This document shows positions 16,859 through 24,686 of a stretch of DNA of 24,751 nucleotides, piece by piece (within the stretch, counting starts at the first letter, position 1; each line of letters begins with the position of its first letter). Position numbers and translations under genes: made by a program. The stretch covers positions 1-24,751 of the IMG/VR virus record IMGVR_UViG_3300037189_007467. The stretch is one strand, 5' to 3'. This DNA comes from a virus. The notes beneath the pieces are model-generated. The model saw only the letters and a list, made by a program, of their open reading frames with translations, was not told the origin of the DNA and ran no database searches.

Positions 16859-17749
16859 TTATGTCGGCGGCGTCAAATCCAGTGCCGGCAGCAAATCCGG
16901 TGCGGACGGACCCTGCGGAACGATGCGAGGGTCTAGGTAACTCTTCTGCGTGATTGCCGGGCTGGAATGATCCGCCAACTTTTGGCCTGCTCCAGGGCAC
17001 GCTGCCTCCGCATACGACACGGCGGCACGGCGTATCCCATGGAAACCACGGTACTGCACCCGCGCACGGCTGGCTATACCCTGCAGCCGCCGCCACAGGA
17101 GGCACGGGTTGCGATCCCACGGCCAGACCATGGCATTCTGGTTCTGGATGCGGCTCGACAGCCAAGCCGCCAACGTCTGCGAAATCTGCCGGTCTAGGTC
17201 GCGGGTCTGGTTTTTCCGCGTTTCCGCCCGGAAAGTGATGCGGCGGCCCGCCGTGTCTACCTCCCGCCATTTGGTGTGCAGAACGGCGTTTATGCGTTCG
17301 CCAGACTCCCAAAGGCAGAGCAGCAACGAGCTCCACCAATCGGCCTCGGAGACACCCGCCACCGTCCCGGTGAACCGTCTGGCCTCGCGGATCAGCAGGG
17401 CCACGTCCTCGGCCGTATAGGCCACGGGCACCCGCGTGGGGGCTCGCATGATGGGCACCTCGGGGAAGGCCAGCATTTCCCCGTCACTGCCCTTCATTCG
17501 TTTTCTAGCGGCATACCGCCACAGTGCCAAAATCTGCACCCGGTCGCGGGCAGCCGTGGCCCGGCACGTCTCGCGCTCTCGAGCGGAAAGGAACCGGGCA
17601 ACCGTTAAATCAGTTAGATGATCCAGCCGTGCCGGCTCGCCCAAGTGTCTGTCGAAGTGCCGCAGACTCACTTGGTAGCAGTTGATCGATTTCTGCCCAA
17701 GGCGGCGAAGCGGGGCATATTCCCGCGAAAAAAGATCGTTCAGCGTCAT
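16859..17749 (-). CDS. int: Tyrosine-recombinase integrase
   Basis: This 296-residue site-specific recombinase should catalyse insertion of the phage into the host chromosome and, with a directionality factor, excision. All active-site residues are visible: R152 (GERINAVL), K179 (RAETRKN), H237 and R240 (FHGIRR), H261 (LADHSSP) and the nucleophile Y271 (KSYLDP). Residues 1-90 form the SAM-like core-binding domain (INCYQVSLRHFDRHLG). No long arm-binding domain is present; length is at the short end of phage integrases. The start has AGGAG on the minus strand 9 bases upstream. It lies divergently from an HTH gene, with the attP candidate between them. Confidence 0.92.
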   Translation of the reverse strand: MTLNDLFSREYAPLRRLGQKSINCYQVSLRHFDRHLGEPARLDHLTDLTVARFLSARERETCRATAARDRVQILALWRYAARKRMKGSDGEMLAFPEVPIMRAPTRVPVAYTAEDVALLIREARRFTGTVAGVSEADWWSSLLLCLWESGERINAVLHTKWREVDTAGRRITFRAETRKNQTRDLDRQISQTLAAWLSSRIQNQNAMVWPWDRNPCLLWRRLQGIASRARVQYRGFHGIRRAAVSYAEAACPGAGQKLADHSSPAITQKSYLDPRIVPQGPSAPDLLPALDLTPPT

Positions 17750-20574: not shown

Positions 20575-20986
20575 CTACGAAAAGACCGGCCGAGGCCCGT
20601 GGGTGGCGAAGCCCGCGACCATCGAAATCGACGCGCTGCCGCTGTGGAGCGACGACCTCCAGGCGGCCAGCATGGAGGCCGTTCGCCTGCAGGCCGAGGC
20701 GCAGCGAGCCGAGCGAGACGAGGCGTGGTGGGCTGCCTACCACGATTACCTCGACAGCACCGATTGGCGGGAGAAGCGCCGCCGCGTGCTCGAGCGGGAT
20801 CGGCACCTCTGCCAAGGCTGCCTGCAAGACGTTGCCGCCCACGTCCACCACATGACATACGACCGGCTCTTCAATGAGTTGCTGTGCGATCTCGTTTCGC
20901 TCTGCACCGAGTGCCATCAGAAGTGCCACCCGCACAAGGACATCCTCGGAAGGGAGTTGCATGGACACGCTGTCACAGTGCATTGA
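20477..20986 (+). CDS. HNH endonuclease with N-terminal zinc ribbon
   Basis: This 169-residue protein has GGAGG at 20466-20470. Residues 1-35 contain C3, H6 and C26-R-N-C29, a zinc-ribbon-like start. Residues 85-155 form the HNH domain: WREKRRRVLERDRHLCQGC, HVHHMTYDR (H124/H125), N133 and C143-T-E-C146 with H147. The paired CxxC motifs bind structural zinc and the histidines cut. Free-standing HNH proteins in phages act in packaging, recombination or as homing nucleases. Here it sits in the replication operon between SSB and primase, not beside terminase, so a replication or recombination role is more likely. It overlaps the next gene by 26 bases. Confidence 0.8.
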   Translation: MQCEKHSSQLVRKVAANGLSQFTYQCRNCGQIDYEKTGRGPWVAKPATIEIDALPLWSDDLQAASMEAVRLQAEAQRAERDEAWWAAYHDYLDSTDWREKRRRVLERDRHLCQGCLQDVAAHVHHMTYDRLFNELLCDLVSLCTECHQKCHPHKDILGRELHGHAVTVH

Positions 20987-22718
20987 TTTTCTCGGCGCGA
21001 TCTTTGAGCCAGAGGACATCATCGAATTCCGCCCGCTACCGCCATCGGCTGGCCGCAGGTGGTCCCCGCTCACCGAAATCCCCGACATCGTGGAATGGCT
21101 GCAGCGGGTGAACGCCGATGAGCACCAGCGCGTGCACGCCTACTTTGGGGCAAACCCGAGGAAGGAAGTCGGTGCCAGCCAGGCCGAAGGCGTGAAGTTG
21201 GCCCGCTGCCTGTTCGCGGACTTTGATGGCGGGGCCGACTACGAAGACGCCATGGGGCGCATCAAGGCGGCGGATCTGCCGTGGCCTACCGCGATCCTTG
21301 AGAGCGGCGGCGGCATCCACGCTTGGTGGCGGCTTGATCAGCCCATGACCGATGCCGAGGCGTGGCACGTTCGCATGAAGGCGATTGCCTCGGCCCTCGG
21401 CTCCGATCAGTCGGTTTGCGATTGGCCACGCATCATGCGGCTGCCGGGATTCGTGAACTGGAAACACGAGCAACGCCCGCTTTCGGTGCTCAAGGACTGC
21501 GATCCCACGAGGGTCTACACGCTGGCCCGGCTTTCGCGGCAGGCGGTGCAGTCGGTGGTTGTGCAGCCCAAGAGCATGAGCGACCTGACGCGGCGATTCG
21601 TGGAGGAGGGATTCACGCTCGCCGCCGGCCGGCGGCAGACGATGTTCACCGTGGCCTGCGACTTGGCTGCTCGAGGGTGGGGCGTTGCCGAGGCTACGAC
21701 GCTCATCATGGGCCGGATGCGGCGTGTCGGGTTGCGGCAGGACGACCTCGACGATTGCCCGAGGCAGATAGCCAACGCATGGAAGCGGCAGCGGCTTCCT
21801 GTTCTTGGCCCTGCTGACGAGGCCCGCCCGGTTGAGGATGCCGTTGACGAGACGCCCACCCCGACGCTCGTGGACGCCATCGATGCCTGGGTGAAGCAGG
21901 AAGAAACGCCGGCCCTGCCGACCGGCCTGACATCGCTTGACATGCTGTTTGACGGCGGCCTTCCCCTTGGGCAGATGACAGCGATTGCGGCGGCCCCCGG
22001 CGTTGGCAAGTCGGCCCTCGCCCTGCAGTTGGCGATCATGGCCCTGACACAGCACCCAGAGATGAATGCCGCGTGGTGCTTGGGCGAGATGACCCGCAGC
22101 GCCTTGGCTGCTCGAGCGGTCACGTACTGGTGCGACGGCAAGCACTTCTCGCACCTGACCCTGCAGGAAGTGATTCACAAGGACATGCACGCCCGTGAAG
22201 TCGGCGTGCACCTGGCCGGCGAAATCGGTGACCGGCTGAAACTTATTGAAGCCCCGCTGGTCGTGGACAAGATCGAGCGGGCCGTGGCGAAGGATGGGGT
22301 GAAGCTGCTGATCGTGGATTACCTGCAGTTGGTCAGGAGCACGAGGCACTTCCCAGACCAGACCGGCGAAATCATTGACGTGCTGCAGAAACTCAGACAC
22401 ATCACCAACAGCCGCAACATCGCCACGGTGCTGGTCACGAATATCGCCAAGGGCGTGGATCACAACACCGAGATCGGCAACATCGGCAAGGGATCAAACC
22501 AGATTGATTTTGACGTGGACAACTTCCTTTTCGGGCAGCGAACTACCGAAGTCGGTGGTGATGGCGAGGTGCTGGTTCGCTGGCACTGCAAGAAGTTGCG
22601 GCAGGGCGAGCGGAAGGACATCGACCTGTGGTTCCACGGGAAGTACCAGCGGTTTGTGGACTCCATCTCAACTCCGTTTGAGGAGTTCAAAGACCCGTGG
22701 GGGCAATCCGATGCCTGA
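20961..22718 (+). CDS. Primase-DnaB-type helicase fusion
   Basis: This 585-residue protein joins two replication enzymes. Residues about 50-190 look like a RepB/AEP-type primase: FADFDGG (D87, D89), ESGGGIHAWW (H120) and PRIMRLPGFVNWK (154-168, with R157 and R160). Residues about 205-280 are a helical linker. Residues 318-575 are a RecA-like helicase of the DnaB/RepA kind: TGLTSLDMLFDGGLPLG, Walker A APGVGKSA (345-352), LGEM, Walker B LLIVDYLQLV (449-458) and the late GSNQIDFDVDNFLF. The start 20961 has GGGAG upstream. It should unwind and prime at the fork, loaded by the downstream initiator-like protein. An operator-like sequence lies in its 3' part. Confidence 0.85.
   Translation: MDTLSQCIDFLGAIFEPEDIIEFRPLPPSAGRRWSPLTEIPDIVEWLQRVNADEHQRVHAYFGANPRKEVGASQAEGVKLARCLFADFDGGADYEDAMGRIKAADLPWPTAILESGGGIHAWWRLDQPMTDAEAWHVRMKAIASALGSDQSVCDWPRIMRLPGFVNWKHEQRPLSVLKDCDPTRVYTLARLSRQAVQSVVVQPKSMSDLTRRFVEEGFTLAAGRRQTMFTVACDLAARGWGVAEATTLIMGRMRRVGLRQDDLDDCPRQIANAWKRQRLPVLGPADEARPVEDAVDETPTPTLVDAIDAWVKQEETPALPTGLTSLDMLFDGGLPLGQMTAIAAAPGVGKSALALQLAIMALTQHPEMNAAWCLGEMTRSALAARAVTYWCDGKHFSHLTLQEVIHKDMHAREVGVHLAGEIGDRLKLIEAPLVVDKIERAVAKDGVKLLIVDYLQLVRSTRHFPDQTGEIIDVLQKLRHITNSRNIATVLVTNIAKGVDHNTEIGNIGKGSNQIDFDVDNFLFGQRTTEVGGDGEVLVRWHCKKLRQGERKDIDLWFHGKYQRFVDSISTPFEEFKDPWGQSDA
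22542..22559. promoter_or_regulatory. Operator-like site inside the helicase gene
   Basis: ACTACCG-AAGT-CGGTGGT fits the operator pattern with one change in the right half, lying within coding sequence (residues RTTEVGG). No promoter is obvious around it. It may be a remote operator for looping, or chance. Confidence 0.35.
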
Positions 22719-23259
22719 CAAGAAACCATCCGCCAAAGGCGAACTGCGCCGCCGCCACAGGGCTTTGCTCTCAGAGGGTGTCATGGCACGCCTCGGAAGC
22801 GAAGGCCGGCTAATGGCTTGCTACGCACTGTATTGGGCTGATTTTGAGAAGTGCACGCTGAAGCTCAGTATCCGTGGGGCGGCTAAGGTGCTTGGCGTCT
22901 GCCCGAATGGCGTGCGGCGTGGCATCCAGCAACTGCTCGAGGCCGGAGTTTTGACGCTGGTTTCCAAGGGAACGGGCAGCCAGCGGAGCCAGTACGAAGT
23001 CGGTGCCCCCGGTCACGAGGCGTGTGCGCTCCGTACACGTAGCGTGACCACCCCGGTCACGACCGGTGACCGGAGCGCACACGTAGCGTGTACGGAGCGC
23101 ACACGTAGCGTGTACAGAGCGCACACGCTACGTGACCCCTATTTAAATATCTCTATTGGTAGTCAAGGTACTACCAATAGAGAGATTCAATCAGCCAATC
23201 CGCCCGGCTCGCCCGGTCAGGAACCGGACGACCGGGCCGAGGAAGGGGGGGCGGCATGA
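22711..23259 (+). CDS. Winged-helix replication initiator-like protein containing the putative origin
   Basis: The protein has 182 residues, starting at ATG 22711 and overlapping the helicase stop by 8 bases. Residues 30-98 form a winged helix: RLMACYALYWADFEKC, LSIRGAAKVLGVCPNGVRRGIQQLLEAGVLTLV, then a GTGSQRSQYEV wing. Residues about 102-142 are encoded by a 22-bp iteron array and look low-complexity. The C-terminal 40 residues are disordered and acidic (PGQEPDDRAEEGGAA). The layout copies lambda O: an N-terminal DNA-binding domain whose own gene holds the origin, next to the helicase gene. Family identity with O cannot be claimed from sequence; a plain regulator is the alternative. Confidence 0.6.
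   Translation: MPDKKPSAKGELRRRHRALLSEGVMARLGSEGRLMACYALYWADFEKCTLKLSIRGAAKVLGVCPNGVRRGIQQLLEAGVLTLVSKGTGSQRSQYEVGAPGHEACALRTRSVTTPVTTGDRSAHVACTERTRSVYRAHTLRDPYLNISIGSQGTTNREIQSANPPGSPGQEPDDRAEEGGAA
23014..23134. repeat. Iteron array, six 11-bp palindromic cores at 22-bp spacing (putative origin)
   Basis: Cores start at 23014, 23036, 23058, 23080, 23102 and 23124, exactly 22 bases apart. They are CACGAGGCGTG, CACGTAGCGTG, CACGACCGGTG, CACGTAGCGTG, CACGTAGCGTG and CACGCTACGTG. Five fit CACG-N3-CGTG; the third ends GGTG. The 11-base linkers are also related: TACGGAGCGCA (23091), TACAGAGCGCA (23113), ACCGGAGCGCA (23069) and the exact inverse of the first at 23025. Because 22 is not a multiple of 3, the encoded peptide does not repeat, so selection is on DNA. 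An AT-rich stretch follows at 23140-23160. Confidence 0.85.
23150..23183. repeat. 14-bp inverted repeat beside the iterons
   Basis: TCTCTATTGGTAGT (23150-23163) and its exact reverse complement (23170-23183) flank CAAGGT. It directly follows the AT-rich stretch CTATTTAAATAT (23139-23150). Its inner ends, TGGTAGT and ACTACCA, equal operator half-sites turned outward. It could be a primer/loading hairpin of the origin or a regulatory site. Confidence 0.75.
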
Positions 23260-23438
23260 GGCACGCCCCCCTCGGGATCCGCGAGGTTGCGGACCAGTGC
23301 CGCCGCCGGGCCGCGCTGGACACGACGGACAACATGACGGCCATCGTCCTGTTGATTGCCGCCAAGGCGCTTGAGCAACAGGCCGACCGGCTGATTCGGC
23401 AGGCTCACACCCTTGAGCACCTGGAGGCCGTCAAGTGA
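23256..23438 (+). CDS. Small helical protein in the replication operon
   Basis: This 60-residue protein starts in an ATGA overlap with the initiator-like gene, with a G-rich stretch GGAAGGGGGG upstream. It reads MRHAPLGIREVADQCRRRAA, then LDTTDNMTAIVLLIAAKALE and QQADRLIRQAHTLEHLEAVK: helices with a short hydrophobic patch (AIVLLIAA) too brief for a membrane span. It is followed by a GTGA overlap with the next ORF. No family is recognised. Confidence 0.55.
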   Translation: MRHAPLGIREVADQCRRRAALDTTDNMTAIVLLIAAKALEQQADRLIRQAHTLEHLEAVK

Positions 23439-23614
23439 CCGTATCCCAGTTGGCCCTCATCTGCGCCGGTTTCTCGATCAACGCCCTGACGTTCGCTCTG
23501 GGCATTCTTGTTGGTTGTTCTCTTCTCACTCGAAAGGATTCGACACATGACCGCAACGAAGGAACGAAAAAAGGCCCGACCCTCTGGCACGAAGTTGAGC
23601 GCCGGAAGTCTTAA
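23435..23614 (+). CDS. Small single-span membrane protein overlapping the clamp gene
   Basis: This 59-codon ORF begins at GTG 23435 (GTGA overlap) with GGAGG at 23423-23427, a strong site. Residues 4-31 are hydrophobic (SQLALICAGFSINALTFALG, then ILVGCSLL), followed by a charged tail (TRKDSTHDRNEGTKKG). This predicts one membrane segment with a cytoplasmic basic tail. It overlaps the start of the sliding clamp gene by 68 bases in another frame. It could be a holin-like, superinfection-exclusion or membrane-anchor protein; nothing decides between these. Confidence 0.5.
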   Translation: MTVSQLALICAGFSINALTFALGILVGCSLLTRKDSTHDRNEGTKKGPTLWHEVERRKS

Positions 23615-24686
23615 GGCGGCGCTGGCCGCTGTGCAGGGTGCCGTGGGCGGCGACCGACACCCGAAGCCCATCCTGCGCAACGTGCTGATCGCCAACGGGC
23701 TGATTACGGCGACCGACCTTGAAGTGCAGATTGAACACGAACTGTGGGCGGGAGACTCGCCATGCACGCTGTCGCTGCTCGTGCCGTTCGCACGCCTGTG
23801 GTCAATCCTGTCGCTGTGCCAGCCGTCCGACGAGGTGACGATCACGCCGGGCGAAACGTCGTGCGTGGTGGCTGCTGGGCACGGCACGTGGACGATCCCC
23901 ACGGAGTCGGCTGCCGAGTACCCCGAGATGGACGCGCCGGGCGTGGCACCGATCACGCGCCTGCCAGCGGACCAGTTTGTGCGGGCGGTGCGTGGCGTGG
24001 TCTACGCCGCAGACAACGAGAGCAGCAGGTACGCCCTTGGTGCCGTGTGCCTTGAGGTCAAAGGCGACGAGGTTTCCGTGGTGGCGACTGACGGCCGGCG
24101 GCTGTCGCTTGTGAAGCTCGAGCACGACCTGGCCGTGGACGATTCAAGCACGCTCGTGCCCGAGCGGGTGATGCAGCTGCTGGCACGTCTGGCAGAGCGG
24201 GCCGGTGACGAGGCCAGCGTGCAGCTGGAAGCCTCGGCCAATACGCTGATGGCAACCATCGGCGGCACGACGGTGACGGCACGGCTGACCGAAGGGCGAT
24301 TTCCAAAGTGGCGGGACGTGTTCCCGACGCGCGACGTTGAAGCGACGGCCGTGGCCCGTGACCAGTTGCTGGCGGCAACCCGTGCGGCGGCCATCGTCAC
24401 GACCGAGAACAGCCGTGGCGTGACATACACGCTGACCGCTGACGGGATCCACCTGCACGGGCAGTCGTCGGAAAGCGGCGAGGCCAGCGTGACGTGCGAT
24501 CTGGTGCAGTTTGGCCAGGCGGCCACGGTGAAGTTGGATCCCCGCTTCGTCGTGGAGTTCTTGAACGGCGTGCCGCTGGACGAAGAGCCCAATGTCGAGG
24601 TCGAGGCCGTGGACGCCACCAGCGCCGTGGTGCTGCGGTGCGGAGAGTTTTTGGGCGTGATCATGCCGCTGGCGAAGGATGCGTGA
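23547..24686 (+). CDS. dnaN: DNA polymerase III beta subunit-like sliding clamp
   Basis: This 379-residue protein is close to the length of bacterial DnaN (about 366). Family landmarks: LSAGSLKAALAAVQGAVGGDRHPKPILRNVLIA at the start; TDLEVQIEHEL; the central RLPADQFVRAVRGVVYAADNE with ALGAVCLEVKGDEVSVVATDGRRLSLV; and the third domain ending GVIMPLAK. Two like beta strands per domain fit the three-domain clamp. It should tether a polymerase to DNA; whether the phage polymerase lies beyond the window or the host polymerase is used is unknown. ATG 23547 has AAAGGA upstream; it overlaps the small membrane ORF. Phage-encoded DnaN-type clamps are uncommon. Confidence 0.88.
   Translation: MTATKERKKARPSGTKLSAGSLKAALAAVQGAVGGDRHPKPILRNVLIANGLITATDLEVQIEHELWAGDSPCTLSLLVPFARLWSILSLCQPSDEVTITPGETSCVVAAGHGTWTIPTESAAEYPEMDAPGVAPITRLPADQFVRAVRGVVYAADNESSRYALGAVCLEVKGDEVSVVATDGRRLSLVKLEHDLAVDDSSTLVPERVMQLLARLAERAGDEASVQLEASANTLMATIGGTTVTARLTEGRFPKWRDVFPTRDVEATAVARDQLLAATRAAAIVTTENSRGVTYTLTADGIHLHGQSSESGEASVTCDLVQFGQAATVKLDPRFVVEFLNGVPLDEEPNVEVEAVDATSAVVLRCGEFLGVIMPLAKDA

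Follow-up and report, generated by a model that had tools for sequence, protein, structure and literature searches.

The segment from 23011 to about 23231 of the window, the 24,751-base stretch that was analysed as a whole, is very probably the replication origin of a phage, of the lambda-like iteron type and nested in the 3' half of its own initiator gene. This reading draws on the anatomy of the segment, the phase and conservation of its sites, covariation, the co-occurrence of array and gene, and the predicted fold of the encoded protein. The window is a linear virus record from IMG/VR and represents an uncultured phage lineage; its gene content includes a terminase and other structural genes, an integrase, a Sak4-like ATPase, an SSB-like protein and an HNH protein. 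The integrase, a tyrosine integrase encoded on the opposite (minus) strand at 16862-17749, lies between the structural and the replication genes, and because of its presence the phage is probably temperate.

The origin candidate is centred on a phased array of palindromes. Six palindromic cores, first proposed in a sequence-only reading, were confirmed at starts 23014, 23036, 23058, 23080, 23102 and 23124, with every one of the five steps measuring 22 bp. Five of the six cores are CACGNNNCGTG, as the description CACG-N3-CGTG had held, and the third is CACGACCGGTG. That description is accurate locally but does not extend to the family, in which the invariant is the longer GnnCAC-N5-GTGnnC (164 sites, 25 loci). 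Expressed as 17-bp sites of this form, the iteron array runs from 23011 to 23137, with sites starting at 23011, 23033, 23055, 23077, 23099 and 23121, and is located, as proposed, within the coding sequence of a winged-helix (WH) protein (ORF 22711-23259) beside a primase-helicase gene. The statement that the peptide does not repeat applies to single 22-bp units but not without qualification, as the peptide can in principle repeat every 66 bp.

Single cores are unremarkable in the window, where 21 matches at no more than one mismatch were found versus 26 expected, and the significance of the array lies in its phased run and not in the single cores. Among 5000 synonymous recodings that used the phage's own codon usage, the longest 22-bp run comprised three full sites, or four of the shorter form CACn5GTG, while 5000 shuffles of codon order gave a longest run of two; six are observed. 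The phased layout is thus far beyond chance given the encoded protein. Furthermore, in 15 viral records of 24-49 kb a two-site pattern was confined to the WH locus, and a reversed control pattern occurred zero times.

The grammar of the sites is that expected of DNA read by a protein over an open reading frame. In the 164 sites from 25 non-redundant loci, the eight key bases of GnnCAC-N5-GTGnnC carry 1.87-2.00 bits and the remaining positions 0.13-1.30 bits. By codon phase, the sites with all eight intact number 32/34, 59/59 and 62/65; because the key bases are equally conserved in every phase, the constraint ignores the reading frame. Covariation between the arms is absent: for three variable offsets, the fraction of shuffles of same-locus arms that paired at least as often as the observed arms was 0.56, 0.9975 and 0.76. 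The lack of covariation argues for half-sites that are read independently, as by a protein dimer. Hairpin formation by the palindromes was rejected as an explanation because the array arms do not covary.

The site centres are found in both orientations. The centre GTAGC (17 cases) was never found in the frame in which it would make TAG, whereas its reverse complement GCTAC occupies that frame in nine of 12 cases (Fisher 2.2e-5, uncorrected for relatedness). The DNA site tolerates inversion, with the open frame deciding which orientation survives. A clean inversion of the core of site 6 was observed between two very close relatives, CACGGCTCGTG in one (L015:5237) versus CACGAGCCGTG in the other (L016:5237), and this difference suggests that palindrome-mediated inversion shuffles the array.

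Relatives were collected by helicase search (37 contigs) and by an alignment-based search (45 contigs), and the array was found in more than 50 related viral contigs, always in the WH orthologue directly 3' of a DnaB-type helicase gene. The arrays of these relatives have six or seven sites at a step of 22 bp, and the seven-site arrays have one 23-bp step, nearly always between sites 2 and 3. Across arrays, mean identity was 0.62 at a lag of 22 versus 0.21 and 0.24 at lags of 21 and 23. According to the sequence-only reading, relatives with the protein intact but without the cores or the phase would speak against it; none was found, and every readable WH orthologue has an array phased at about 22 bp. 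When 2.9 million viral contigs were scanned for three consecutive sites by DNA alone, 45 contigs were returned, 34 of which were loci already fetched (by contig name) and 11 of which were new. In all 11, the gene that holds the array is a WH orthologue (45-51% identity) immediately preceded by a DnaB-type gene (38-42% identity), and the scan gave no array contig outside the WH family, as far as checked. From this result it was concluded that array and gene predict each other.

An alignment of relatives had been proposed in order to see whether the phase is kept, and it is kept even where the sequence of the sites has switched. One group (L078-L084), with helicases 67-69% identical to that of the window, has arrays made of GGnAC/GTTCC-type sites instead of the CAC type. 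In two of its members (L079 and L082), seven such sites are spaced at 23, 22, 22, 22, 22 and 22 bp, and in L078 they are of mixed orientation and incompletely registered. The two aligned members of the group, L078 and L079, carry E74 in place of Q74 in the recognition helix of the WH protein. In a single further relative (L085:5116-5245), the recognition helix has R74 and the sites, spaced at 22-23 bp, read TGGCAC-N5-GTGCCA, which is possibly a third specificity. In these sequences, the 22-bp phase outlives the sequence of the site, and iteron sequence correlates with recognition-helix residue 74 over three groups. The same iterons are also found in a distant set of relatives, clade C (L105, L107, L109, L112, L114, L115, L128, L130, L131, L137 and L144). 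In the six of these that could be read through, the helicase has a DnaB-like N-terminus and no fused AEP primase domain.

The earlier reading correctly placed an AT-rich stretch and a 14-bp inverted repeat immediately after the array; the repeat is perfect, with arms at 23150-23163 and 23170-23183 and a 6-nt loop. The AT-rich part (23138-23195) is a putative unwinding element. The inverted repeat extends to a hairpin, IR1 (23146-23187), with 18-bp arms that contain one mismatch. The second hairpin, IR2 (23209-23231), lies beyond it and is GC-rich; GGT-n5-ACC closes its 5-nt loop, and its arms of nine contain one mismatch. Most loci have CA-containing tetranucleotides at about +10, +20, +31, +41 and +53 after the last core, a regularity that at +20 and +41 is partly a product of hairpin symmetry; in the window, CAAG/CAAT motifs at 23164, 23175 and 23188 correspond to +30, +41 and +54 of this series. 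The counterpart motif in clade C is CTCAA at +11, +21 and +31 or +32.

Both hairpins covary in the relatives. For IR1, 92.5% of cells were paired versus 74.0% after shuffling, two-sided changes were present in 64 cells versus 17.8, and every slid register was far worse. For IR2, 195 of 208 cells in 26 loci were Watson-Crick pairs versus 149.9 +- 4.3 in shuffles, and the hairpin stands at a similar distance throughout. Its score is not extreme compared with random windows, most loci falling below the 99th percentile, and IR2 is supported because of its fixed position and covariation, not because of its score. The site-switched relatives L078 and L079 retain both IR1 and IR2, and clade C retains the hairpins with other sequences. 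IR1 and IR2 are hairpins kept by compensatory changes.

The genes around the array are replication genes, the neighbours of the WH gene including the primase-helicase, the sliding clamp, and the Sak4-like and SSB-like proteins. The gene at 20961-22718 (plus strand) encodes an AEP primase (RepB_primase-like) fused to a DnaB-type helicase and is likely the replicative helicase-primase, as judged from Pfam matches (DnaB_C, 6.3e-21; RepB_primase PF16793, 6.5e-8), intact AEP motifs (ADFDGG, SGGGIHAWW and DWPRIMRLPG) and Walker A/B motifs, and structure matches to PrimPol 6zp9 and DnaB structures. Its start codon (MDTLSQ) was picked by eye, and the longest frame begins at 20874. The WH gene (22711-23259, plus strand), a predicted initiator gene for a protein of 182 aa that was called from its ORF, an AlphaFold model and weak PHROG matches, overlaps the helicase stop by 8 bp at its 5' end. 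It is followed by a 60-aa ORF (23256-23438), which is conserved in L007 and L008 and gave no PHROG match, and shortly 3' of the WH gene by a phage-encoded DNA polymerase III sliding clamp (beta) at 23541-24686. The clamp of the clade C contig L130 is 58% identical; in many other relatives, a small LexA-like winged-helix ORF stands in its place. No relative turned up in bacterial and archaeal genomes, which were scanned twice with helicase queries, a tblastn search of INPHARED with the WH protein gave zero matches, and clamp and TerL searches in INPHARED gave matches that were distant and mixed only.

AlphaFold predicts a confident winged helix at about residues 8-97 of the WH protein (22732-23001, plus strand), with a mean pLDDT of about 82-95 over most of the domain, and the alignment places the recognition helix, with Q74, at about residues 65-78. 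The tail is predicted to be disordered from about residue 102, and the first iteron starts at residue 101; the whole array would therefore encode the disordered tail. Pfam and NCBIfam leave the family unassigned, no Pfam initiator model reaches its cut-off, and the family profile gave only marginal matches in the PDB. Matches to PHROG replication-initiation families are weak and involve single members only (best 2.4e-4, before correction for 24 members), as are those to O-like families (best 0.0066). Foldseek matches in the PDB are generic winged helices (best E 0.005), including transcription regulators of the CadC, CodY and MarR types and TubR (4asn), and also 4pql, 4pt7 and 5kbj, the titles of which are DNA-binding protein, initiator and Rep-DNA structures. 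Among predicted viral structures there were 63 matches at E <= 0.001, the named ones being the lambda GpO N-terminus, RepL, Replication initiator A, Replisome organizer and replication protein O of phage Min27. The best reading is that the WH protein belongs to a new initiator family.

The origin of phage lambda offers the closest parallel. It contains four inverted-repeat iterons in the O gene, at steps of 20, 24 and 23, with an adjoining AT-rich tract; origins of Stx phages have six iterons versus the four of lambda, and in lambda formation of the O-some is followed by opening of the AT-rich tract (PMC7466680). The sites of the WH family, 17-bp palindromes in six or seven copies, qualify as iterons when these are taken as inverted repeats of about 18-20 bp in four to six copies. 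As in lambda, Stx-phage and P22-type origins, the origin candidate lies in the middle of the initiator gene, with four to six inverted-repeat iterons and an adjoining AT-rich tract. The array encodes a stretch of the initiator itself, as in lambda, and the predicted winged-helix fold of the N-terminus is shared; by analogy, this N-terminal domain would also read the iterons. The in-gene iterons, the AT-rich tract and the fold uphold the earlier comparison with the lambda O/ori layout. The two systems differ in that the family keeps a strict 22-bp phase, whereas the lambda steps are 20, 24 and 23, and in that two covarying hairpins and a motif phased at 10-11 bp are present in the AT-rich part of the window. 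In addition, the window's own DnaB-type helicase gene precedes the initiator gene, whereas the P-type loader gene of lambda follows O; no P-type helicase loader was found downstream of the WH gene, where the 60-aa ORF and the sliding clamp are located. Membership in the lambda O family was considered and is unsupported by sequence: hhalign gave a probability of 6.5% for the WH profile against six O N-termini, and no member matched a Pfam O-domain model. The best reading, by analogy, is that the WH protein works like O, with membership in the O family not supported by sequence.

Several plasmid systems share parts of this layout. In the RepA_N initiator of pSK41, the winged-helix N-terminal domain binds repeats that are central in its own gene, and the origin-encoded linker is dispensable (PMC5703833). 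Central repeats that encode a linker are likewise present in the WH family, in which, unlike RepA_N, the sites are palindromic and the phase is very regular; the RepA_N domain PF06970 gave no match in the WH family, and no conserved C-terminal primase-interaction domain was seen. The oriV of IncQ/RSF1010 resembles the segment in its iterons, AT-rich part and hairpins, and a RepB_primase domain (PF16793) occurs in the helicase-primase of the window, but the genes of the window are fused and arranged differently and the clade C hairpins occur without a primase domain. The RK2 oriV has repeated short motifs in the AT-rich part beside its iterons, and TrfA reads 13-mers there as single strands (PMC4081077). 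The motif of the WH family differs in recurring every 10-11 bp and in overlapping a covarying hairpin.

By analogy with lambda and with plasmid initiators that read unwinding-element repeats, such as TrfA, a mechanism can be proposed, in which we infer binding, opening, helicase loading and the start of replication. The WH protein would bind each GnnCAC-N5-GTGnnC site as a dimer, with one subunit on each half-site, and six or seven dimers at 22-bp steps would assemble into a nucleoprotein structure that resembles the lambda O-some and that would strain and open the adjoining AT-rich segment. The CA motifs phased at 10-11 bp and the two hairpins may help to hold the separated strands in a state that allows loading of the adjacent DnaB-type helicase, to which a primase is fused in the clade of the window. 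The array-encoded part of the protein would be a disordered linker with a sequence set by the DNA sites. GC skew in the window and in four relatives of 46-49 kb was monotone, with no turning point at the array, and is dominated by gene direction.

What reads the unwinding element was considered separately. The hairpin ssiA, which the RepB' primase of RSF1010 reads, measures 21 nt (PMC4434180), and IR2 frequently has precisely this length. The idea that IR1 and IR2 are start sites for a RepB'-like primase is weakened by clade C, in which the hairpins persist without an AEP domain in the helicase gene. It is more plausible that the hairpins act in opening or helicase loading in general. A tentative extension, held with less than even confidence, is that the origin consists of separately exchangeable modules, with the iterons changing along with the recognition helix and the unwinding element and hairpin along with the helicase lineage. 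The pairings that suggest it are CAC-type iterons with Q74, the GTTCC type with E74 and the TGGCAC type with R74, and, for the unwinding element, the CA[AG][TG] type with the AEP-primase-DnaB fusion and the CTCAA type with a DnaB-like helicase without AEP, all seen in few clades. If this reading is true, the unwinding element would be read by the helicase side and not by the initiator.

Other explanations of the array were weighed against the origin model. The WH protein might be a transcription repressor that controls the replication operon by binding a cluster of operators inside the WH gene, and its closest PDB folds are indeed transcription regulators. Autoregulation by iteron-binding initiators is, moreover, common. 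Yet six or seven strictly phased sites far exceed the needs of an operator, the array always ends beside an AT-rich hairpin element and not a promoter, and the only further sites in the window, versus a chance number estimated here at about 0.8, are two isolated ones at 23733 and 23877, on the downstream side within or close to the clamp gene, with none at an upstream promoter. This explanation is improbable, and a regulatory role may exist alongside the origin role. Less probable again is a partition centromere of the parS/parC type, with the WH protein as its small winged-helix adaptor in the manner of TubR or ParR. The gene for such a small protein close to repeated sites would fit a centromere, as would the fold match to TubR, but no partition ATPase or GTPase is found among the neighbours in the window, a DnaB-type helicase is what accompanies the gene throughout 11 distant relatives, and the array lies within a gene, with a covarying hairpin element after it.

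Equally slight is the chance that the palindromes are mRNA or single-stranded DNA hairpins and the array a structural RNA or a recombination or packaging site. The cores are palindromic and the adjacent IR1 and IR2 show compensatory changes, as this explanation would have it; within the array itself, however, variable arm positions pair no more than shuffled arms, and eight bases are fixed, as for reading by a protein, instead of varying freely with pairing kept. Neutral tandem duplication in a disordered tail, with no function at the DNA level, has a negligible probability: tandem repeats arise easily and the tail is predicted to be disordered, but conservation is concentrated at eight positions in all codon phases, the phase persists where the site sequence has changed completely, and synonymous recodings never reproduce the array. 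The lambda-like origin is the preferred reading.

Lambdoid phages and RepA_N plasmids already provide examples of the layout itself (PMC7466680, PMC5703833). In the open-licence literature searched, no description was found of the initiator family, its strict 22-bp grammar, the pair of hairpins, the phased motif of the unwinding element or the switches. The analysis also suggests a function for this protein family, which is unidentified in PHROGs, Pfam and NCBIfam. The co-evolution of target sites with a coding frame, and a change of specificity without loss of the origin, are hard to observe. The family provides more than 50 natural variants with a strict phase, site switches paired with one position of the recognition helix, and an unwinding element that switches independently. 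It amounts to a clean natural experiment, in which the protein and its DNA target vary in concert with the 22-base spacing retained, and it makes the rules of iteron specificity and helicase loading directly testable.
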